Origin: Syntrophobacterales bacterium
Lineage (GTDB): Bacteria; Desulfobacterota; Desulfobaccia; Desulfobaccales; 0-14-0-80-60-11
Assembly: GCA_020060385.1 (NCBI GenBank)
Contig: JAGVAH010000119.1
Coordinates: forward strand, 1-40,014
Direction: 5' to 3'
DNA length: 40,014 bases
Shown: positions 25,311 through 40,014 of the stretch, in pieces
Layout: the number at the start of each line of letters is the position of its first letter
Position numbering within the stretch: position 1 is the first letter of the stretch
The notes under the pieces: generated by a model
The model's database searches: none
Told to the model about the DNA's origin: nothing
What the model saw: the letters and a program-made list of their open reading frames with translations, nothing else
Translations under genes and position numbers: made by a program

Positions 25311-26455
25311 ATTGTGTGGTGGTTTGGGGAGATCCTTTTCAAATACAAAACTGTGATAATCATATAAAATGGCAATTATTTTTAGTTAAACGGCTGATAA
25401 ATAGATGCTATGAAAGGTTCCTCGAGTAAGCCTCTTGGTATAAAAGTGGAATTCCGCAAGAAAAAGGAGGCCTACAATGGACCAGAAGCAGGCAGAGCAA
25501 GCTTTAGAAAAGGGAGCTCAAGTACCGGTATTATATGTCGCCTTCGAACTGGCAAACAGCACCTGGAAGATGGCATGCAGTGATGGAGGCAAGTTGCGGC
25601 ATGTCACCGTGACTGCCAGGGATCTGATGCAGGTGCAAGGAGCGATTCTTGGAGCCAGGCGGCATTTCGGCATGGGCGGCGAGATATGCATAGTGAGCTG
25701 TTATGAGGCTGGAAGGGATGGCTTTTGGCTGCACCGGTAACTCCAAAGCTGTGGGATCGAAAATGTGGTGGTGGATTCTGCCAGCCTGGAAGTGGACCGG
25801 CGGTTGCGGAGGGCAAAAACCGATCGGATCGATGGGGGAAAACTTTTGAGAATGTTGGTCCGTTATCACGGCGGGGAGAAGCACCTGTGGCGGGTGGTGC
25901 GAGTGCCAAGCCGGGAGGATGAGGACGCCAGGCATTTGCATCGGGAATTAGAGGCCTTGAAGAGAGAGCGAACCAAGTACCGCAACCGAATCCACGGGAT
26001 TCTGATCCAGCAAGGGCTGCGCATCAACAACCCGAGCAAGAAAAAGTTTGTCAAAGAATTAGAGCTTATGCGTACCTGGGACGGCCAAGAGCTGCCGTCC
26101 GAAATGAAGGTGAGGCTGGTAAGAGTGCATGAGCGGTTACGGATGGTGGAGGACCAGATCAGCAGCCTGGTAAAAGAGAAAACGCAACGTCTTAAGGAGG
26201 AAAACGCCAGAATGGGGCAAGTGGCCCAGCTTTTGAGGCTGCCCGGGATCGGCCCGGTGAGTTCCTGGACCTTCGTCATGGAGTTTTTCGGCTGGCGCCG
26301 GTTTCGGAACCGGCGGGAAGTGGGCGCCCTGGCGGGCCTGACTCCTACTCCTTACGACAGCGGCAGAAGGCTGCGAGAACAAGGGATCAGCAAAGCCGGC
26401 AGCCGGCGGGTGCGAACCCTGGCCATCGAGATCGCCTGGGCCTGGCTGCGGTGGT
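25311..26455 (+). mobile_element. IS110-family insertion sequence, decayed and truncated
   Basis: It contains the transposase remnant at 25477-26452 preceded by about 165 bases of AT-rich non-coding DNA. In IS110 elements the non-coding end next to the recombinase start encodes the bridge RNA, so 25311-25476 is where such an RNA would lie; no RNA structure could be verified by eye. IS110 elements lack long terminal inverted repeats, so exact ends are not visible. The right boundary at about 26453-26457 is sharp: sequence switches to a fragment of the neighbouring beta-propeller gene. Confidence 0.7.
25477..26452 (+). pseudogene. IS110-family transposase with one in-frame stop and lost C-terminus
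   Basis: Starts at ATG 25477 after AAAAAGGAGG. The N-terminal DEDD (RuvC-like) half includes LYVAFELANSTWKMA, CYEAGRDGFWLHR and AKTDRIDGGKLL. A TAA at 25738-25740 interrupts at codon 88, where a Tyr (TAC/TAT) would be expected before LQSCGIENVVVDSAS; the frame is otherwise unbroken. The Transposase_20 half is clear in RLPGIGPVSSWTFVMEFFGW and EVGALAGLTPTPYDSG. After AIEIAWAWLRW the family normally continues for about 50 more residues, but here unrelated sequence follows. It is not expected to be active. Confidence 0.88.
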
Positions 26456-26943
26456 GGCATCGGCCTTGGCGACGAAGGGACCCGGCGGTACCGGCCCCTT
26501 GAGTAGGGGATTGGTGACTCCTGCGATGTACACTCTCCGGGTTTGCGGTTGTTAATGTAGGCCGTGGCCTGGTACTCGTCCGCGCTCCGCCAGGCGAAAA
26601 ACTGATTGGGCCGACGAATGACCCGGTGAAGGTGTCGCAGGGGAACAGGCGGCTGCGTTGGCCATCGGCGATTTCTGCCGCGTTGAGCGACGGGTAGTAA
26701 CCGGGAGTGGGAAGCCCCTGGCAACAGCGTAACTCCTTGTCGTACAGGCTCACCTCACCGGGGAGGGGCCCGTTCGCAGCAATCTCATTGGAATTGAGCC
26801 CAATCTCGGAGAGCCGCTGCTCGGATTTCGGCCTTATGGAAGTCCATAGCAGGCGATAGGCGACAACCATTACCAGGACGACGAATGCCGCAGTGGCCAG
26901 TTTGGTGATTGCAGACTTTTTCTTATTGCTCCCTTCATCAGCT
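26456..26943 (-). pseudogene. Frameshifted N-terminal fragment of a beta-propeller-like paralog
   Basis: On the minus strand this matches the N-terminus of the protein at 26965-28590: AANGPLPGEVSLYDKELRCC and PGYYPSLNAAEIADGQRS correspond to AANGPLPGNVLLYEKEFQES and PGYYPSLNGAEVGDAQRS. The match continues in a second frame (SADEYQATAYINNRKPGE) and a third (GPVPPGPFVAKADA). Each shift is explained by one lost base in a T-run near 26598 and a G-run near 26530. It ends where the IS110 remnant begins. An N-terminal membrane helix is recognisable near KLATAAFVVLVMVVAYRLLW, but no good start codon remains. Confidence 0.85.
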
Positions 26944-26964: not shown

Positions 26965-28590
26965 TTACTTGTTCGGCGGCGCTCCAGGCTTCGGCTTGAC
27001 CTGAAGCACGATGAACCCGTTCCCGGTCGGGTAGTACACCCGGCCACCGTAAGCGGGCGTGACTAGGGTGTTTATTCCCATTGGTTCGAAGAGGTCTGAC
27101 TCTGCCAGGATTCGTCCCGTCGCGGCGTCGCGCCAGACCACTTGTTCCCGGTAGTCGCCGGAGATCAGGGTTTTCAGGATGGGCAGATGAACCTTGCCGA
27201 ACTTCATGCGCGAGGTCATGAGAACGCGCTGGTCCTTCGGCCCAATCAGAGACTGGAACGAGGTGGTGGGGTTGTCCGCGACCCACACGGTCTTCATCTC
27301 GCCCGTGGCCTGATAGAGTTTGATGCCGGCCAGCTTGCCCATGCCCACGTCCGCTGAGTAGATCATGTTGTTCTCATGGTCGGTGCCGCTCTTGGGCGGG
27401 GCGAAGCTGATCTGGCCCGGCTTGAGCTGCCCGAACGGGAACACCGAGGTCATCCGGCTAGGTTCCTTCTGGTTGATGGCCACAATGCTGGAGGCGATGT
27501 CCTTGGTCACGGGGCCGTTCGTCTGGATCACGATCCAGTCGCCCATGACGCCGGCGCAGGCCCCGTTTTGCTGACCTTTGGCCAGGTAGGAGACCACCCA
27601 GGACTTGTCCTGCGAGAGCTTCTTCGTCTGGGGGTCCCAGAAGTAACGAAACACATGCTTATACGCCACGGCATAGATGGCGATCTTGCCTTCGAACATC
27701 GTGATGACGTGGGGCGAACCCGCTGACTCAGGCATGTCGATGGCGTCCAGCACTTGCAAAGACTCCGGATCGACCGCGACAATCCGGGAATTGTTCGGCT
27801 TCAGACCCTTGGCGTAAGCCTGGATCATCCCCATGCTGCCCTGGCCCGTGCCGCCCACAGGCATGTTCTGGTTTTTGAGGATGAGCGTGCCGTCGGGCGC
27901 GATCGTCAAGTGCTTGAAGTTGGCGTCCCGGGCCGGTGTATCCCCGGTGGGGAGGGTGTTCGCTTTGAGGATGCGGCCCGACTCGGGGGCGATCAGCACG
28001 ATGGTGTTGCCCCAGGACTCGGCGATCTTGCCGCTGGCCAGGATGTTCAAGTTCGTATTGGCGATCCAGCGGACGGTCACATTGGCGTTGTCCAGATAGG
28101 TGCGCCAGATTTGCTCGCCGGTTACCGGGTCCACTTTCGCGACATAGGGTCCGGGGGCCACCGGCCCGGAGATCGCGGGTGAGTCCCCGCCCAAAAGAAA
28201 CAGCTCCCCGGGACGCCGGTTGTTGAGGAACGTCGTTCCCTGGTAGATTGAGGGGCTGCGGTGCGCAAAGACAACGTTGGGACCGGTGAATGAACCGCCA
28301 AACGTGGCCTGGGGGTAAAGAGCGCTCCGCTGCGCATCCCCGACTTCCGCGCCGTTCAGCGACGGGTAGTAGCCGGGACTGGCGTACTTGGCGCTCTCCT
28401 GAAACTCTTTTTCATACAGGAGCACATTGCCGGGCAGGGGCCCGTTAGCGGCTTTTTCGTTCTCGGTCCGGGCATGGGTCAGCCCGCTGACGACGTTCTC
28501 GGCCTTTGGCCAGAACAAGACGACCGCGGTGACGGCGACCAGCGCGCCGAGCACTAACGCTGCCAGCATGATTTCTCTGAACTTACTCAT
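26965..28590 (-). CDS. Exported or membrane-anchored PQQ-like beta-propeller protein
   Basis: A 541-residue protein. An N-terminal hydrophobic helix (about 8-28, ending VVLFWPKAE) acts as an anchor or signal. The remainder is beta-rich with repeated blades resembling PQQ-enzyme repeats, for example PYVAKVDPVTGEQIWRTYL, NTIVLIAPESGRILKANTL, SRIVAVDPESLQVLDAI and EQVVWRDAATGRILAESDL. There are no evident metal or quinone ligands, so it may be a binding or scaffold propeller rather than an enzyme. AGAGGAGA is at good spacing before the ATG. It lies 60 bases after the DUF1254/DUF1214 gene, so the two are probably an operon. A decayed paralog follows downstream. Confidence 0.75.
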   Translation of the reverse strand: MSKFREIMLAALVLGALVAVTAVVLFWPKAENVVSGLTHARTENEKAANGPLPGNVLLYEKEFQESAKYASPGYYPSLNGAEVGDAQRSALYPQATFGGSFTGPNVVFAHRSPSIYQGTTFLNNRRPGELFLLGGDSPAISGPVAPGPYVAKVDPVTGEQIWRTYLDNANVTVRWIANTNLNILASGKIAESWGNTIVLIAPESGRILKANTLPTGDTPARDANFKHLTIAPDGTLILKNQNMPVGGTGQGSMGMIQAYAKGLKPNNSRIVAVDPESLQVLDAIDMPESAGSPHVITMFEGKIAIYAVAYKHVFRYFWDPQTKKLSQDKSWVVSYLAKGQQNGACAGVMGDWIVIQTNGPVTKDIASSIVAINQKEPSRMTSVFPFGQLKPGQISFAPPKSGTDHENNMIYSADVGMGKLAGIKLYQATGEMKTVWVADNPTTSFQSLIGPKDQRVLMTSRMKFGKVHLPILKTLISGDYREQVVWRDAATGRILAESDLFEPMGINTLVTPAYGGRVYYPTGNGFIVLQVKPKPGAPPNK

Positions 28591-28650: not shown

Positions 28651-31488
28651 CTACTTCTTCATGCCTTCGGCTTCAAATTTCTCCTTCGTGGTGTAGTAGC
28701 CCTTCGGGTAATACGGTCCCATGACGGCTTCCGCGGTGCCGGGCTTGGTCACCTTCTCCGGGCTCTGCACCCAGGCCGGGTTGTTGGCCATGATGCGCAG
28801 CATCAGCATGCCGAAGTCGGCGCGGTTCTTCGGACCGTCGATGCCCTCCCCCCGGGGGCTCCACTCTATCCAGGCCACCCCGTTCTCAAGCGTCGCGTTC
28901 TTCGGCCGGTCCTCGTGGCGGCTATACACGATCGTGAAGTTACCATCCTTGTCCAGGGGCACCTGCATGTCGGTGAGGCCGTCCACGATTTGCCCCGAGG
29001 GCGCGGCCTCGCAACTGACGAGGGACCAGTACTGGGTCTGCGCCTCGGGCATGATCTCGAGGCCCTTGCCGCCCGCCCCGGCGTAGGTGTCGGGAAATGT
29101 CGGCATCTTGCCGCGCATCACGTAAACCGGGCCGAACTTGCGCGAGAGATAGAGAAACATATACTGGGTCGCCGGATCTCCGCCACCGTCTATGGCACTG
29201 GCGTAGGGAATCTTGGCGCGCTCTCCGGGCGTCTTGAACGCGCCGACGATCGAATACCTGATGTTCCAGTACTTCTCCCACTTGGGATCTTGGCGCGCCG
29301 GCGCGGTCGCCGGATCCAGCGTGGGATCATTGTCCTTCGCGTGCACCAGCATTTCCCACTGCTCGGCGGTGATGGGCTGCTTGGTGGCGCCCTTGATGGG
29401 CCGGGCGAAACGCTTGACCACTTCGGCCGCCGAGAGCTTAGTGCCGTTGGCCAGGGTTCCCGAGTAAGCCGGCAGGCCGCGTCCGCCGAAAGACGATGCC
29501 GCCGGGCCCCATCCCGTGCCGTCCCTGCCCTGATCCGGGAGGTAAATGCGAATTACGGCCTCGAGCTTTCCACCGCCCTTGCCCACATAGAGCGTGTTCG
29601 GCTTGCGGCGCTGCGGATCTTTCGGGGCATCCGCGGCCAGGATTCGAAGGGTGAAGTTGCGCTTTGGGGCCAGCCTATTGGCCCCGACCCGGAAGGGATT
29701 GGTGGAGCCAGGATCAGGCTCGATCTTGGGTCCGGCGAGGGCCTCACCGATGGAAACGAATGTGCCGCGCTCGGCCTTATAGAGCGCGAACTGGAAATAG
29801 CGCGCCTGGGGATAGGTACAGTTCAGTTTCAGACTGCTTCCGGCAGGCATTGCCAGTGGGCCGATGAAGTAGGTGGACTGCATGTCGGGCCAGAGGTTCG
29901 GGTTCTGGATCGGCCTGGGGTATTCCAGGTAATTCCAGTAACCCCAGCCCCGCGGTCCCTGGAACAGGCCATCGTGGCCATAGCGCTGGTCGGTGCGGAT
30001 GAAATTCTCCAGGGATTTGTCGCCGAAGCGCGTCACGTCTTTAGCCCTGAGGTTGCGCGCTGGCATGATGCCGGGCGGTTGCCACGTCCCTTTCCCCAGG
30101 GGGAAAACCGAAGGCGGCTCCGTCTTCGGCCAGTAGAGGCGCATCACCATGAACATCGGGCCGTCCGGCGCCGGCAGCCAGTTGGACTCCTTGTCCTTGC
30201 CGGGGGAATCTTTCTGAATGTACAAAGTGATCGACCCGTCGGTGTTCTTCTGCAACTGCGGGAGCATGGGCGAGTTGATGAGATAGCGGTTGATGGGGTT
30301 TTCGATGAGGAGCTGAGTGCGGCCGTCGTACATGGTGATGGACCAGAACGCGTTGACGGGGGGAAGCTGTCCCGCGGGGAAGGTCAGGGTGTAGGTGTGC
30401 AATTTGCCGTTCAGCGGATTGCCGTTCACGTCATGGCGGGTGAAAGGATAGGTGGCTTCGGCTGCGTCATTGCCATAGATGCCGAGCTTGGCGGCCGCAG
30501 CGCGCAGGGCCCAATTGCCATGATAATAAGCGCGATCGCCTGTGGCCGACCCAATCCGCCAGCCGTTGACCTCTGTACCGATACTCTCGGCTGTCGCCTC
30601 GATCTTGGCAAAGGCTTCCTTAATGGCCTCGCCCAGGGCCGCCTTCATTGCCGGCGAGAGTTTCTTCGGAGCAACCTTCCTGTCGGCGCCGATCCCGATC
30701 TTGGCGAACCTTTCCCGCAGTGGTTTCTCCATAGAGGCTGTCCCCACCGGGGGGCAGAATTGCAGCAGAAAACCAAGATACTCGGCGAAGCGGGTCGTGA
30801 AGGCTTCCTGGGTGAATTTCGGCCAGTCGATGGCCGGTGCCGCGGGTGGCGCGGGTTTGCCGAGAAAGGCCGACAGAGGCTGCACCTTGTACCCCGCCTG
30901 GACCTTTTTGACGTTGTCGATGTCGGCGGGGTTGAATAGCTGGGTGCGATAGATCACGAAACTGAACTGCGTTTCGCAGCGAAAGACCTTCTTGATGCCC
31001 GGCGGCGTCTCGCCTTTCCAGTCCGGTCCGGCAACCAGGTAACAGCCCGCGCCGTTCCCGGTGGTGCGGCTGCCCATGTACCCGTAATTGTCGGTGTACA
31101 GGTCCACGAGTTGGACGTCGTAGTAGCGGGCCTTCTCGATCTCCGGCATGCGCAGCACCATGGGCTCAGCGCGCAGATCCAGCCGCACCATGGAGTAGGG
31201 TGTGTCGCTGTTGGGCGTGGTGATGGTGGTGTCCTTGGGGGTGAACACCCGGGCTTCGTTAAAGATCTGGTTGAAAGGCGCCTTGAATTGTCCGGAGGAC
31301 CTGTCCACATTGAATTCATAGAGTGCCTTGTAGCCAACGATCATGGGGAAGCCATAGAGGTAGGCTTCTTTGGCGATCGCTTTGAACTCGCTGCTGGCAG
31401 GCTGGTCCTGAGCCCAGCACGGCCTGGCTACCACCAAGGTAACCATGGCGATGACTGTCACCGCCAGCCTCAATATTATCGTCTGCAT
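28651..31488 (-). CDS. Long exported DUF1254/DUF1214 protein with C-terminal extension
   Basis: About 945 residues. A signal peptide (about 1-27, ending RPCWA) precedes a DUF1254 domain (about 35-200; ITTPNSDTPYSMVRLDLRAE, GCYLVAGPDWKGETPPG) and a DUF1214 domain (about 310-460; NWALRAAAAKLGIYGNDAAE, FWSITMYDGRTQLLIENPIN, PAPDGPMFMVMRLYWPK). Ordinary family members end there at about 470 residues. Here another 480 residues follow, including a second segment with DUF1214-like closing features (EAVIRIYLPDQ and the near-terminal YSRHEDRPKNA plus WIEWSPRGEG). The ATG at 31488 has AAGGAG 6 bases before it and is preferred over the one at 31503. The biochemical role of these domains is unsettled. 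It is upstream of the beta-propeller gene. Confidence 0.85.
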   Translation of the reverse strand: MQTIILRLAVTVIAMVTLVVARPCWAQDQPASSEFKAIAKEAYLYGFPMIVGYKALYEFNVDRSSGQFKAPFNQIFNEARVFTPKDTTITTPNSDTPYSMVRLDLRAEPMVLRMPEIEKARYYDVQLVDLYTDNYGYMGSRTTGNGAGCYLVAGPDWKGETPPGIKKVFRCETQFSFVIYRTQLFNPADIDNVKKVQAGYKVQPLSAFLGKPAPPAAPAIDWPKFTQEAFTTRFAEYLGFLLQFCPPVGTASMEKPLRERFAKIGIGADRKVAPKKLSPAMKAALGEAIKEAFAKIEATAESIGTEVNGWRIGSATGDRAYYHGNWALRAAAAKLGIYGNDAAEATYPFTRHDVNGNPLNGKLHTYTLTFPAGQLPPVNAFWSITMYDGRTQLLIENPINRYLINSPMLPQLQKNTDGSITLYIQKDSPGKDKESNWLPAPDGPMFMVMRLYWPKTEPPSVFPLGKGTWQPPGIMPARNLRAKDVTRFGDKSLENFIRTDQRYGHDGLFQGPRGWGYWNYLEYPRPIQNPNLWPDMQSTYFIGPLAMPAGSSLKLNCTYPQARYFQFALYKAERGTFVSIGEALAGPKIEPDPGSTNPFRVGANRLAPKRNFTLRILAADAPKDPQRRKPNTLYVGKGGGKLEAVIRIYLPDQGRDGTGWGPAASSFGGRGLPAYSGTLANGTKLSAAEVVKRFARPIKGATKQPITAEQWEMLVHAKDNDPTLDPATAPARQDPKWEKYWNIRYSIVGAFKTPGERAKIPYASAIDGGGDPATQYMFLYLSRKFGPVYVMRGKMPTFPDTYAGAGGKGLEIMPEAQTQYWSLVSCEAAPSGQIVDGLTDMQVPLDKDGNFTIVYSRHEDRPKNATLENGVAWIEWSPRGEGIDGPKNRADFGMLMLRIMANNPAWVQSPEKVTKPGTAEAVMGPYYPKGYYTTKEKFEAEGMKK

Positions 31489-31636
31489 AGCTCTCTCCTT
31501 CATTAGTGCTTCCCGAAGCGGCGTTTACCGGTAACCAAGATTAAGAACCGTATTGGCAGTCCTCTCAATGGGACAGGGTTGAGGAATTTCTGCTTGCTGT
31601 TTAAGCAGTGAACACTCTTGGGCTCGCTAACCCTGT

Positions 31637-35312: not shown

Positions 35313-36548
35313 CTAGATACCCCACAAGAGATCGCTCTTTACCGAGCCGATGCCGTTTTGGGGGTCGTTGATCCATACCCGCGCCTCCAGATTGACGGCG
35401 TTATCCCCGAAGCCGGTTAAACGGCAGGCAGGCTTGGGATCTTTGAGGACCCGCTGGCTATCCGCGGCGGCAACCAGCATCAGTTCCCTGGCTTTCTCCA
35501 AATCAGAGCCGTAGGCGACGCCAACGGGTATCCTTAGCCGGACGAGGTTCTGACTGTAAGACCAGTTGATTACCTCACCGGTTATCAGGTTTTCATTTGG
35601 GATGAGATGTTCGGTGCCGTCCCGGGTGATGACGGAGACATAGCGGCTTCCCAGGAAATTGATCCAACCATACCTGTCCTGCAGTTGAATGACATCTCCG
35701 GGCTTGATGGATTTATCCGCCAGGAGGATGAACCCGCTCACCAGGTTGGCAAAGACCTTTTGCAGGCCGAAACCGAGACCCAACCCCAGGGGGCCGCTGA
35801 ACAGGGCGAAGATAGTGAGATCGAGCCCCAGGTAATGTAAGACTATGACGACACACGCAGAAAAGAGAAAAATGCTGCCAAGGCGATACAATAGGATTTG
35901 GGCTGCGGAAGTCAAATTTGATTTGGCTGTCAGCCAGAAATGGAGAAGTATTCGCAGGTTTTTTGATACCCAGAAAAGGCCCAGCAACAGGAAAGAGGCC
36001 CGTTGAATATCTAAAAGAGAAAAGCGCACATGCCCAAGTTGGAAAACAATATCTTGCAAAAAACGAAACCAGAAGTCGATGAAACTAAAAAAACCAAGAG
36101 TGGCTAAGAGTAAGGCATAAGACCAAATAGTAATGGCCAGAATTTTAGCCCAGAAGCGGTTTTTCATCTCGCCGGTGAACAATCGTACCAGGGTTAGGGC
36201 CACCAAAATAATGCCTGCGGCGAACAGTTCATTCCGGGGCCAGTTGAAATGGCCCGCAATGTTATACGCTATCGCCAGGAAGATAAAGGCGATAAAGGCG
36301 TCAATAACCTTGACGAAATCCAGGAGTACGGCCAGGTCAGCACAGGCTTCCGGATGCGTGGCGTATTGCCCCTGCTGGCGGGTCAACCAGGCGCGCATGG
36401 CCCCGCTCACTTTGTGGGCAAACAAAAGAGCGCCGACCAAGACTACAATCTGGGCAACCATGGCCCAGGAGAGCATGTGATGAAAAAAATATTCCCGGGC
36501 CCGGGATACTAATTGGTCAAGGGAGGCAGGACCAAAAGGATTGCCCAT
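35313..36548 (-). CDS. MscS-family mechanosensitive channel, cut short by an amber codon
   Basis: A 411-residue inner-membrane channel. Several N-terminal helices precede the pore helix and gate (GPLGLGLGFGLQKVFANLVS), DKSIKPGDVIQLQDRYGWI starts the cytoplasmic beta domain, and VIRRDG-like VITRDGTEHLIPNENL follows. The frame meets TAG at 35313-35315, but continues in the same frame for 34 more codons to TGA at 35208, and those codons read QRFREHGIEIPYPQQDVHLK, the usual MscS C-terminus. So one substitution, probably at a Trp codon (TGG to TAG), removes the last strand region. The start ATG has GGGAGGA at good spacing. It heads the second Mla-like operon. Confidence 0.88.
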   Translation of the reverse strand: MGNPFGPASLDQLVSRAREYFFHHMLSWAMVAQIVVLVGALLFAHKVSGAMRAWLTRQQGQYATHPEACADLAVLLDFVKVIDAFIAFIFLAIAYNIAGHFNWPRNELFAAGIILVALTLVRLFTGEMKNRFWAKILAITIWSYALLLATLGFFSFIDFWFRFLQDIVFQLGHVRFSLLDIQRASFLLLGLFWVSKNLRILLHFWLTAKSNLTSAAQILLYRLGSIFLFSACVVIVLHYLGLDLTIFALFSGPLGLGLGFGLQKVFANLVSGFILLADKSIKPGDVIQLQDRYGWINFLGSRYVSVITRDGTEHLIPNENLITGEVINWSYSQNLVRLRIPVGVAYGSDLEKARELMLVAAADSQRVLKDPKPACRLTGFGDNAVNLEARVWINDPQNGIGSVKSDLLWGI

Positions 36549-36718: not shown

Positions 36719-37140
36719 TTATTGATTAGGATTCGGGACCACGCAATAGGACACCTCTGAACCTTGGTAACATTTTTGATAATAGGTCTTACCGTCAACA
36801 TAGTAAGTCTGATTGTTCACCACCACTGGTCGGGCCGCAGCGGATAAATATCCCACCGTCGCGCCCACCGCCAGACCCGCAGCCGCCCCGGTGGCTACCC
36901 TGCCGTAGCCGGGGCCATAGTAGGCGTTCCAGTTCCGGGAGACATTCACATTACGGGTGTAGGTCCCACCTCCGGCGGGTGGACGATAGGCAGTTCCCCC
37001 TGCCGGCCCTCTGACAGCCGCGCCGCCATGGGGATCCCTATAGGCCTCGCCTCCCCGGGGAGTCCTGACATATTGACCACCCCTATGACCTTGCGCCACG
37101 GCACCGCCCCGAGGCCCTTGGACATAACCGCCGCTACCAT
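36719..37140 (-). pseudogene. C-terminal fragment of a Gly/Ala-rich surface-type protein
   Basis: From about 37140 down to the stop at 36719, the frame encodes a Gly/Arg-rich stretch (GGYVQGPRGGAVAQGHRGGQ), then GAAAGLAVGATVGYL, a glycine-zipper-like helix, and VVVNNQTYYVDGKTYYQKCY ending YCVVPNPNQ. The ending is closely related to the gene at 39726-40014 (IVNNTTYYYDGTNYYQPC, YCVVSDPN). There is no start codon or ribosome binding site of its own: upstream it runs, out of frame, into the truncated DUF1254 gene. It may be a deletion product lacking its own 5' end. Confidence 0.7.
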
Positions 37141-37923
37141 GGGTGTGTCCGCAACCGCGGGTGGGTTGTCCTTCATGAGGGTCGCCAAGAGCTTGAAGTA
37201 GGAGCCGGCGTCCATCCGGTTCACCTGGTCCCGGACCGGGGTTTTCATGTCGATGGACGGGTCCACCTTGCCCGGGGGTGGAGTATAAGGCCTTCCGTTG
37301 GCGCTGAGCGGCACCAGTTTGCATTGATCCTGGATTTTGTGCACCGCTTGATAATCCGCAGGGGTACCTGTACAGTAGATGCGGCCCAGAATCCAGACTA
37401 TGCTGGTGGGAGATTTGTATTCCGTGACGCCCTGGGGAAGCTTGCCCTTCCAGTTGGGGCCGGTGATGGCATAGGTCTGGGCCTTGGTGCCGGTGGTCCG
37501 CTTGCCCGGGACCTGGAATACGTCGGTCCAGCCTGAGAGCATGGGCATGAGGAAGTAGCGGCCCTGCATGTCCGGCAGGCTCAGGACCCAGGACTCCTTG
37601 GCGACATCCAGCCAGGCCATGGTGTAAAGCGTGTCCGCATTGGGAGCGGTGACCTCTTTGTTCGCCGGAGTCGGATACTCCCGCAGCCTGGCGAACTGGC
37701 CAATAGGCGCCTTATGTGCTTCCGGAGCGGCTGCGTTGGTCAGCACCCGGCGGGTCATTTCCATAGTCACAAGGGGGTAGCCATAGATATATGCCTCAAC
37801 GCCGATCTTCGCGGCATCCTGCTCACTGACTTTAGCCTCTTGCTTTGACCAAGCCGGCCAGACCGCCAGCATGACCGCAATGGACATCGCCAAGACGGTT
37901 AAGAGAACGGCTTTTGCCTTCAT
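36946..37923 (-). pseudogene. DUF1254 protein truncated by a junction with a Gly-rich gene
   Basis: The ATG at 37923 follows AGGAGGAGG. A signal peptide (about 1-26) precedes a full DUF1254 domain: AYIYGYPLVTMEMTRRVLTN, VTAPNADTLYTMAWLDVAKE, GRYFLMPMLSGWTDVFQVPG and AITGPNWKGKLPQGV. Family-like sequence ends at LMKDNPPAVADTPMVA (about 37150-37130). The frame then stays open to 36946, but those residues (for example KVIGVVNMSGLPGEARP) are the wrong-frame reading of the Gly-rich fragment. The DUF1214 domain that normally follows is missing. It is likely non-functional or only a DUF1254 half-protein. Confidence 0.75.
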
Positions 37924-38014
37924 GCCTCCTCCTGGTAATTGACCATAGTATCCTCGCCTCAATCAAACCGTTGCCTCTCATTTTGCGGCATGATATCCCA
38001 GTTGGCTGATTAAG

Positions 38015-38575
38015 TTAGCGCCAACCGGGACCGCGGCGGCCGACGCCGACGCCGTGGAAGCCGAAGCCGACGCCGCCACCAGCTCCGATCCAATCGATGA
38101 ATAGCGCGGTCGCGCCGCCTTTGGCGGGCATCTTACCGTTGAGAACTTTATAGCTGTAGACGAGGTCCGCACCGTCCACCACCGGATTGGTGAGCGTGAC
38201 CACCACAATGGTATTCTCGGGTTTTCCCGGCTCATAGACGGATAGCGTGGCGTTGGGTGGGTTGGCGCCAAAATTGTCCTTGCCGGCTTTTGCGGTCCAT
38301 TCCTTGAGATAGTCGGCCATTTTAATATGCCCGGCGATACGCTGCGGCCGATCTGAAAAAAACAATGTCTGCGGGTTTACCTTCACCAGCCGAAAGGTGC
38401 CCTTAGCAGAATCAACCTTGAGATCCTCTGCACTCTGCACGAACATGAGCTGGGGCGCTTCGGCAGCAGCCGCAGTCTGCGCCAAAGCCGCAATCGATAA
38501 ACCTACTAATGCCACCAAGAGAAAAACCCGGTGGGTGTGTTTGAGATGTTTGTGAAATTCGCTTAGTATTTTCAT
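38015..38575 (-). CDS. Exported protein of unknown function
   Basis: About 186 residues. The start at 38575 has AAAGGAG at good spacing; the frame is open further upstream without such support. A signal peptide (about 15-37, ending QTAAAAEA) is followed by a beta-rich domain (LMFVQSAEDLKVDSAKGTFR, TLFFSDRPQRIAGHIKMADY, ATLSVYEPGKPENTIVVVTL, VYSYKVLNGKMPAKGGATAL) and a Gly/Arg-rich C-terminus with GFHGVGVGRRGPGWR. I recognise the pattern as a recurrent uncharacterised secreted family, but know no function. It lies among the other exported proteins of this block. Confidence 0.8.
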   Translation of the reverse strand: MKILSEFHKHLKHTHRVFLLVALVGLSIAALAQTAAAAEAPQLMFVQSAEDLKVDSAKGTFRLVKVNPQTLFFSDRPQRIAGHIKMADYLKEWTAKAGKDNFGANPPNATLSVYEPGKPENTIVVVTLTNPVVDGADLVYSYKVLNGKMPAKGGATALFIDWIGAGGGVGFGFHGVGVGRRGPGWR

Positions 38576-38739
38576 GGCTTGCTCCTTTCCTGATCTTTTA
38601 AAATAGCCCTGCTGTCGAGGGACAAAAAGGGGACGAGAGCAAGTGTCGAGGGAAGTGCGTTGACCGTGGTGCGATCTCTGTAGGTTTTGCGCCCCTCTTG
38701 CCACTCGACACCTGCTCCGCGCTCCTTATGGATACTGCA

Positions 38740-39654
38740 CTACTCGCTCGTCCGGTTGCTACGCTGCGCCGCTTCGAGTTTCTTGATGTCCCCGGGCGAC
38801 AGCTTGGGCCGGTGGATGGTCAGGGTGATCTTCTTGATCTTGCCGGTGAACTTGAAGGGCACCTGATAGTCCCTGTCGTCCACCGGGGTGCCGGTGTCGG
38901 ACCCCACGTCCAGGTTTTCATCCCATTGCAAGATGAAGGGGATGGTGCGCTCCATCTTCTGGGTGGGCACTTCCTTGCCGTCCACCTTGAGGACACCCGT
39001 GCCGGAGCGGCCGATACCGCTCATGTTATTAAAAGCCAGGGTGCCCATCCCCAGGCTGGCCTGGTGGGGAGGAGCATTGGCCCCGTTGCCATTCGGGAAC
39101 AGTCCCTGGAGATTTTGCAAGACCAGAAAGTTGGCGTCCCCCTGCCGCCAGCCCCGTCCCACAGGCTGGCCCTGGTCCCGGATGGTCCAAACCTTATCTT
39201 GGGAGTGGCGGCAGGATACCGCCCGGATAATGACCCCAGCCAAGCCCTCCCCCCAGGGCGGCTGGCCCTGTATATAGGTAAATGGACTTGCCGGGGAAAT
39301 GCCTGCGGCGCTGAGGGCTGCGTTCCGGGCGGCCAGGACTGAGGCCCTCGCCGTCAGGCTCCCAAAGAGGCGCTCTTGCACGATTGCCAGGCCCCATTCC
39401 TGCAATAATCTGGCAATCTCGCGGTAGGTGGCTCGAGCAGCGATCGCCGCATCTGCACCCCACGCTGTTGGCACCACCAAAAAGGCTTGGCCCGGTCCGG
39501 CAACGCGTATATGCACCCTGCTCAATTCCAGATAAGAGCCGGTGGAGCCGGAGAAGAACTTCTTTGCCTGCCAACGGACAGGTGGGAAACCCCCTAGAGC
39601 AGATTCTGCTAACTCCGTATCTCTGCTAGGGGGTTCCTTGGAGTTTGCTGGCAT
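38740..39654 (-). CDS. Chimeric ORF: chorismatase/RidA-like N-terminus joined to arylsulfatase C-terminus
   Basis: A 304-residue ORF; ATG 39654 has AAGGGAGG before it. Residues about 30-185 resemble the N-terminal half of FkbO/Hyg5-type chorismatases, whose fold is related to RidA: REIARLLQEWGLAIVQERLF, SPFTYIQGQPPWGEGLAGVI and DANFLVLQNLQGL. From about residue 203 the sequence is the C-terminal tail of arylsulfatases: MGTLAFNNMSGIGRSGTGVL, KMERTIPFILQWDENLDVGS and KFTGKIKKITLTI. The sulfatase catalytic Cys/Ser-x-Pro-x-Arg core is absent. The joint near 39045-39100 is in frame. No signal peptide is obvious. It is either a remnant of a deletion or a new fusion protein; the first half's assignment is less certain than the second's. 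Confidence 0.75.
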   Translation of the reverse strand: MPANSKEPPSRDTELAESALGGFPPVRWQAKKFFSGSTGSYLELSRVHIRVAGPGQAFLVVPTAWGADAAIAARATYREIARLLQEWGLAIVQERLFGSLTARASVLAARNAALSAAGISPASPFTYIQGQPPWGEGLAGVIIRAVSCRHSQDKVWTIRDQGQPVGRGWRQGDANFLVLQNLQGLFPNGNGANAPPHQASLGMGTLAFNNMSGIGRSGTGVLKVDGKEVPTQKMERTIPFILQWDENLDVGSDTGTPVDDRDYQVPFKFTGKIKKITLTIHRPKLSPGDIKKLEAAQRSNRTSE

Positions 39655-39725
39655 TGGGCCTCCCTTAATATTTCTCCTGTGCGGGGGCAGATCAGCCATA
39701 CCGGCCCAAGAGCTATGGCGCCCTA

Positions 39726-40014
39726 TTAATTCGGGTCCGATACCACGCAGTAATTTATATCGGCGCCCTGGCCGCAGGGCTGGTAGTAGTTGGTGCCATC
39801 GTAGTAGTAAGTGGTGTTATTCACTATCAGGGGTTGGGCCGCGGCCGGCAAGGAGGCCACGGTGGCGCCGATGGCCAGACCCGCGGCCGCACCCACCACG
39901 GCCCCGGCGGCCGCCGCACCCGCGCCGTAATAGCCCCAACCACCGGTAGCGGTGACGCTTCGGGAGACATTAACATCAGCATAGCCACCACGGGCACCCG
40001 CAGCACCGTAGCCC
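39726..40014 (-). CDS. Partial Gly/Ala-rich protein, 5' end beyond the window
   Basis: About 95 codons are visible, ending at TAA 39726-39728. They read ADVNVSRSVTATGGWGYYGA, then a glycine-zipper-like stretch GAAAGLAIGATVASLPAAAQ, then IVNNTTYYYDGTNYYQPCGQ and INYCVVSDPN. The ending is paralogous to the fragment at 36719-37140, including two Cys residues and the TYY/YYQ pattern. The glycine zipper suggests membrane association of an exported protein. The function is unknown and the start is outside the window. Confidence 0.75.
   Translation of the reverse strand, partial: GYGAAGARGGYADVNVSRSVTATGGWGYYGAGAAAAGAVVGAAAGLAIGATVASLPAAAQPLIVNNTTYYYDGTNYYQPCGQGADINYCVVSDPN

Follow-up and report, generated by a model that had tools for sequence, protein, structure and literature searches.

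An in-frame chimera of two truncated genes, a chorismatase-like Rid gene and an arylsulfatase gene, probably made by a recent deletion in a Syntrophobacterales bacterium

Introduction

What is a reading frame that begins like a chorismatase-like Rid protein and ends like an arylsulfatase: a new two-domain protein, the joined remains of broken genes, or a product of assembly? The question is raised by a locus in a Syntrophobacterales bacterium (assembly GCA_020060385.1, 4.15 Mb in 175 contigs), in which the window, i.e. the whole 40,014-nucleotide stretch analysed here, is the entire contig C105 (JAGVAH010000119.1). Gene fusions born of deletions are documented in bacteria (PMC12803068; PMC7671302 for M. 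tuberculosis), and such fusions can be expressed and fixed (PMC12803068, PMC7671302). Using homology searches, structure prediction and comparison with related loci, we propose that a recent deletion in a same-strand gene array probably created the frame, and that its product probably has no selected function.

Results

The reading frame and its joint

The frame runs on the minus strand from an ATG at 39654 to a stop at 38740 and encodes 304 residues, with a further in-frame ATG at 39699 as an alternative start. Its parts are as follows.

39657 to 39670, minus strand: ribosome-binding-site-like sequence AAGGGAGG upstream of the ATG at 39654, read directly from the sequence
39058 to 39654, minus strand: Rid/YjgF part, chorismatase-like, N-terminal 199 residues, from profile, AlphaFold2 model and fold matches
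39050 to 39064, minus strand: in-frame joint of the two gene remnants, at about 39057, from the limits of homology
38740 to 39057, minus strand: arylsulfatase part, last 105 residues of a parent of about 835 residues with its natural stop codon, from sequence matches

The joint is placed at about 39057 because homology to the Rid family extends to a conserved 'QA' at residues 198-199 and sulfatase homology begins at residue 201. Separate searches with the two halves led to unrelated families, Rid and arylsulfatase, as the sequence-only reading had anticipated, and its description of an in-frame joint preceded by a good ribosome binding site also agrees with the letters, in which an AGGGAGG-like site lies directly 5' of the ATG at 39654. 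At the level of sequence, the frame is thus confirmed as an in-frame chimera of two unrelated truncated genes: a 5' part and a 3' part from two unrelated parents on the same strand, joined in frame. No long repeats occur at the joint, the DNA there folds no better than shuffled sequences, which gives no support to a hairpin as its cause, and no clear microhomology could be demonstrated. The same fusion, which was to be looked for in other genomes, is absent from 99 relatives and 34 related loci.

The N-terminal half derives from a chorismatase-like Rid family

Residues 1-199 gave no convincing match in Pfam, NCBIfam, PDB sequences, plasmids or 395 + 17 + 398 genomes, and before a family profile was used the bacterium's own phylum yielded chance matches only; early weak matches to a dikinase-like family, a flagellar-type protein and cysteine synthase were likewise discarded as chance. 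The best homologue, from Planctomycetota, matches with an E-value of 2.8e-29 and 44% identity. The planctomycete homologues are full-length proteins of about 390 residues with a Ribonuc_L-PSP match (E 5e-14) and a weak match to the FkbO/Hyg5 chorismatase family TIGR04444, which stays below threshold (E 5e-11). One full-length relative (L073) passes the PF01042 gathering score (52.7 versus 27.3 bits), reaches 42 bits against the TIGR04444 cut-off of 325, and matches the FkbO structure PDB 4bps at E 1.8e-5; the window protein itself matches neither PF01042 nor TIGR04444 (NCBIfam). A Rid-family profile of ten rows, one of them the window fragment itself, matched the window protein at E 5.2e-52 over profile positions 2-174 of 399. 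The same profile detected five further long relatives in the bacterium's own phylum and no full-length gene in its own genus, family or order; one member of its own genus has a Rid-only match of 143 residues.

An AlphaFold2 model of residues 1-199, built on ten sequences, has a pLDDT of about 90 for most residues between 70 and 180 and adopts the Rid fold: over residues 48-148 it aligns with RidA-type structures at Z 10.5 and an rmsd of 2.4-2.7 (95-96 residues aligned), and its best Foldseek matches are chorismatase structures. Residues of about 46-149 are accordingly predicted by the model to form one complete Rid domain, the rest holding the first strands of a second. A single-sequence fold of the whole chimera was uninformative (pLDDT 33).

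The chorismatase/RidA-like character claimed for this half is therefore supported by the planctomycete homologues, the profile and the fold matches. Its length needed correction: the family assignment stood, but the half comprises 199 residues, with homology up to the 'QA' at 198-199, rather than about 185. That it might be a normal arylsulfatase segment is ruled out by the Rid-family alignment, profile and fold matches, and a frameshifted or diverged arylsulfatase was rejected as well, the Rid family aligning through residue 199 and no sulfatase appearing in the other frames. Five loci seemed to match residues 161-304, but the match ahead of the tail proved to be a chance extension; their reading frames are ordinary arylsulfatases, and residues 161-200 fit the Rid family.

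In every full-length homologue seen, the N-terminal domain comes with two following domains, and almost every strongly conserved position of the full-length family falls after the joint, outside the part kept here. The conserved RTW, PASTGI, YGSAFSR, SGTA and DVCR motifs lie beyond it, and the catalytic C-terminal domain of chorismatases is absent. The half thus resembles the FkbO/Hyg5 chorismatases (TIGR04444; PDB 4bps, 5ag3, 5a3k) in that its family matches FkbO, but of the family's domains the window frame has the first and just the beginning of the second, and even the full-length relatives score far under the family cut-off. With the Rid/YjgF/YER057c/UK114 proteins (PF01042) it shares the Rid fold predicted for residues of about 46-149; unlike them, the window domain has no PF01042 match and originates near the N-terminus of a larger protein.

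Elsewhere in the genome, on contig C30 (G000:C30:21451-21597, minus strand; L101, L107:7434-7601), an intergenic scrap of 50-60 residues lies between stop codons. It corresponds to the catalytic domain of the chorismatase-like Rid family (YGSAFSRG...SGAAAIDPQG) and is, by its sequence, a second relic of this family in the same genome.

The C-terminal half is the end of an arylsulfatase extension

Residues 200-304 are 78% identical to the last 105 residues of an arylsulfatase from a genome of the same family (G013), 83% identical to the end of an Accumulibacter arylsulfatase and 73-77% identical to several others, so that the proposed arylsulfatase tail is borne out at 78-83% identity over 105 residues. 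The parent-type enzyme has about 835 residues, and the matched span corresponds to residues 730-834 of an 834-residue homologue. In this homologue the sulfatase domain occupies residues 81-497 and similarity to solved sulfatases stops at 605; the tail is therefore the end of an extra C-terminal extension, and is homologous to that of other 830-residue sulfatases. Compared with the S1 arylsulfatases of this type (PF00884), the window frame shares the last 105 residues at 78-83% identity, but has only the end of the extension, without the sulfatase domain. The catalytic CSPTR segment of the parent, an instance of the PF00884 CxPxR motif, is missing. The only other trace of the sulfatase in the genome is a 52%-identical paralogue on contig C135. 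A PF21168 search of the bacterium's own genome was empty, and its controls were silent as well.

As the sequence-only reading had it, neither parent's catalytic core is left in the 304-residue frame; the conserved Rid motifs and the sulfatase domain both fall outside. As judged from these missing parts, the product can act neither as a chorismatase nor as a sulfatase.

Compared pairwise with intact sulfatases, the tail gives dN/dS values of 0.09-0.16, the same as among the intact sulfatases (0.09-0.22); as one genome carries the fusion, the value for the tail does not separate the history after the joint. On these values the tail shows no sign of relaxed selection, and appears to have evolved as functional sequence until recently. 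The joint would hence be recent or under constraint.

The surrounding block is a place of gene decay

The genes around the chimera lie on the same strand.

39726 to 40014, minus strand: second DUF6515-like gene, cut off by the end of the contig
38015 to 38704, minus strand: intact gene for a small secreted-type protein of 229 residues, open from a GTG at 38704, probable start near 38575
37134 to 37962, minus strand: DUF1254 gene, 5' part, truncated at about 37134
36719 to 37134, minus strand: glycine-rich DUF6515-like gene, 3' part, truncated at its 5' end, in another frame than the DUF1254 part and upstream of MscS

Downstream of the chimera the order is the 229-residue frame, the DUF1254 part, the DUF6515-like part, MscS and the mla genes. 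Homologues of the 229-residue gene adjoin arylsulfatase and DUF1254 genes at two related loci (L035 and L041), and an intact paralogue of the DUF6515-like gene at 36719-37134 lies on contig C111. In two genomes of the same family (G013 and G018), an arylsulfatase, a DUF6515 remnant and MscS follow in the same order with the sulfatase intact. Because in these relatives an intact arylsulfatase stands at the corresponding position, upstream of the MscS/mla genes, the tail is best read as a remnant in situ. In the same two genomes the DUF6515-like gene upstream of MscS is cut to about 93 residues (G013, L066:12182-12496) and 27 residues (G018, L069:5707-5787), and sequence has therefore been lost repeatedly at this spot in the family.

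Three joints are present in the block, and the chimera is the one in frame. The joint at about 37134 links DUF1254 to DUF6515 out of frame, and at 26429-26915 on the minus strand a frameshifted copy of the first 165 or so residues of a PQQ-like gene abuts an IS110 transposase; this copy is about 49% identical to the 541-residue gene at 26965-28590. The suggestion of repeated gene fusion in this block did not hold, as the 37.1 kb joint and the IS110-side piece are broken genes, and since the former is out of frame and the latter frameshifted, the block is a place of gene decay.

Discussion

We consider it fairly likely that a recent deletion in a same-strand gene array made the fusion frame and that its product has no selected function. 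At 39057 and at about 37134 alike, the gene lying upstream contributes its 5' part and the one lying downstream its 3' part, both on one strand, which is the pattern that deletions leave, and for this reason we infer a deletion as the event; its recency and the lack of a selected function in the product are likewise inferred. Also in favour are the tail in the place expected of a sulfatase, the decay of the block, the Rid-family scrap on contig C30 and the loss of nearly all conserved Rid positions. In the proposed sequence of events, a deletion would have struck the array upstream of the MscS/mla cluster, taking the end of a chorismatase-like Rid gene (a 3' part that measures about 230 codons in relatives) together with the first 730 or so codons of an arylsulfatase gene. 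The remnants would have met in frame by chance, giving a 304-residue frame that inherits its start signals from the Rid gene and its stop codon from the sulfatase gene and that could encode, at most, one Rid domain with a tail from the sulfatase C-terminal extension. Two deletions would account for both joints, with one in frame as expected in one of three. Against this stands that an unfused ancestor, with the Rid gene beside an intact sulfatase, was not seen in any relative: no Rid gene lies beside a related sulfatase in three genomes (G196, G1102 and G327), and in a fourth (G117) the only sulfatases, 6 kb from its Rid gene, are distant ones at about 30% identity. The undecayed tail fits a very recent event, but would fit retained constraint or misassembly too.

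Assembly error is the main rival to a deletion-born fusion, because the contig ends just 957 bases beyond the joint. Here the last 957 bases, carrying the Rid half and the DUF6515 copy, would have been misjoined to the sulfatase remnant, as might happen in a genome of 175 contigs; both halves are clean and undecayed, and with the fusion in no other genome the joint has no support from any relative. The halves, however, share no long common sequence that could mislead an assembler, strand and orientation suit a deletion, G+C lies at about 60-64% to either side, other contigs of the genome also carry DUF6515-like sequence and a piece of the Rid family, and a misjoin would be in frame by a chance of 1 in 3. 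We regard a misassembly as unlikely. Still less probable, in our view, is a genuinely new two-domain protein under selection, i.e. a Rid domain given a new C-terminal tail, for which speak the open frame with its good ribosome binding site, the one complete Rid domain predicted with high confidence, the tail free of relaxed selection and the precedent of expressed and fixed deletion-born fusions (PMC12803068, PMC7671302). Yet the fusion was seen once, the joint cuts the second Rid domain directly behind its first strands, the tail starts partway into the sulfatase extension (residue 730) and the adjacent genes are broken. Similarly improbable is the more specific version in which selection keeps a newly born functional protein whose solitary Rid domain came from a chorismatase-like gene gained by horizontal transfer and whose tail derives from the sulfatase; a selected new function is possible, with the open frame and the intact Rid domain as its only support. 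That the Rid domain alone functions as a truncated protein, the sulfatase tail being a mere readthrough appendage, we hold to be highly improbable: residues 46-149 are modelled as a complete domain of the Rid type, with Z 10.5 against RidA proteins, but in the full-length homologues this domain is always joined to the two domains that hold most conserved positions.

We therefore see in the chimera a real event of an ordinary kind, and in its product probably no functioning new enzyme. Like the documented deletion-born bacterial fusions (PMC12803068; PMC7671302), it joins a 5' part and a 3' part in frame on the same strand under inherited start signals; unlike them, it is present in a single genome and known from sequence alone, its unfused ancestor was not found, and both parents lack their catalytic parts. 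It would offer a clean single example of a deletion assembling an intact-looking chimeric frame from two broken genes, and this in a lineage only distantly related to the well-sampled species in which such fusions were catalogued. To annotators it is a warning, as the frame has the look of a sound gene, down to its good ribosome binding site, although both parent enzymes are lost. Should sister strains retain the chimera under selection, gene birth would be open to direct tracking.

We note two further features of the window. A 950-residue DUF1254/DUF1214 protein is encoded at 28651-31503 on the minus strand, and its homologue at L063 has only 524 residues, the extra 470 or so being C-terminal. 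The genome holds two MscS-type genes, at 35313-36548 of the window and at G000:C51:36469-37701, which are 79% identical, a divergence equal to that of orthologues in other genera.
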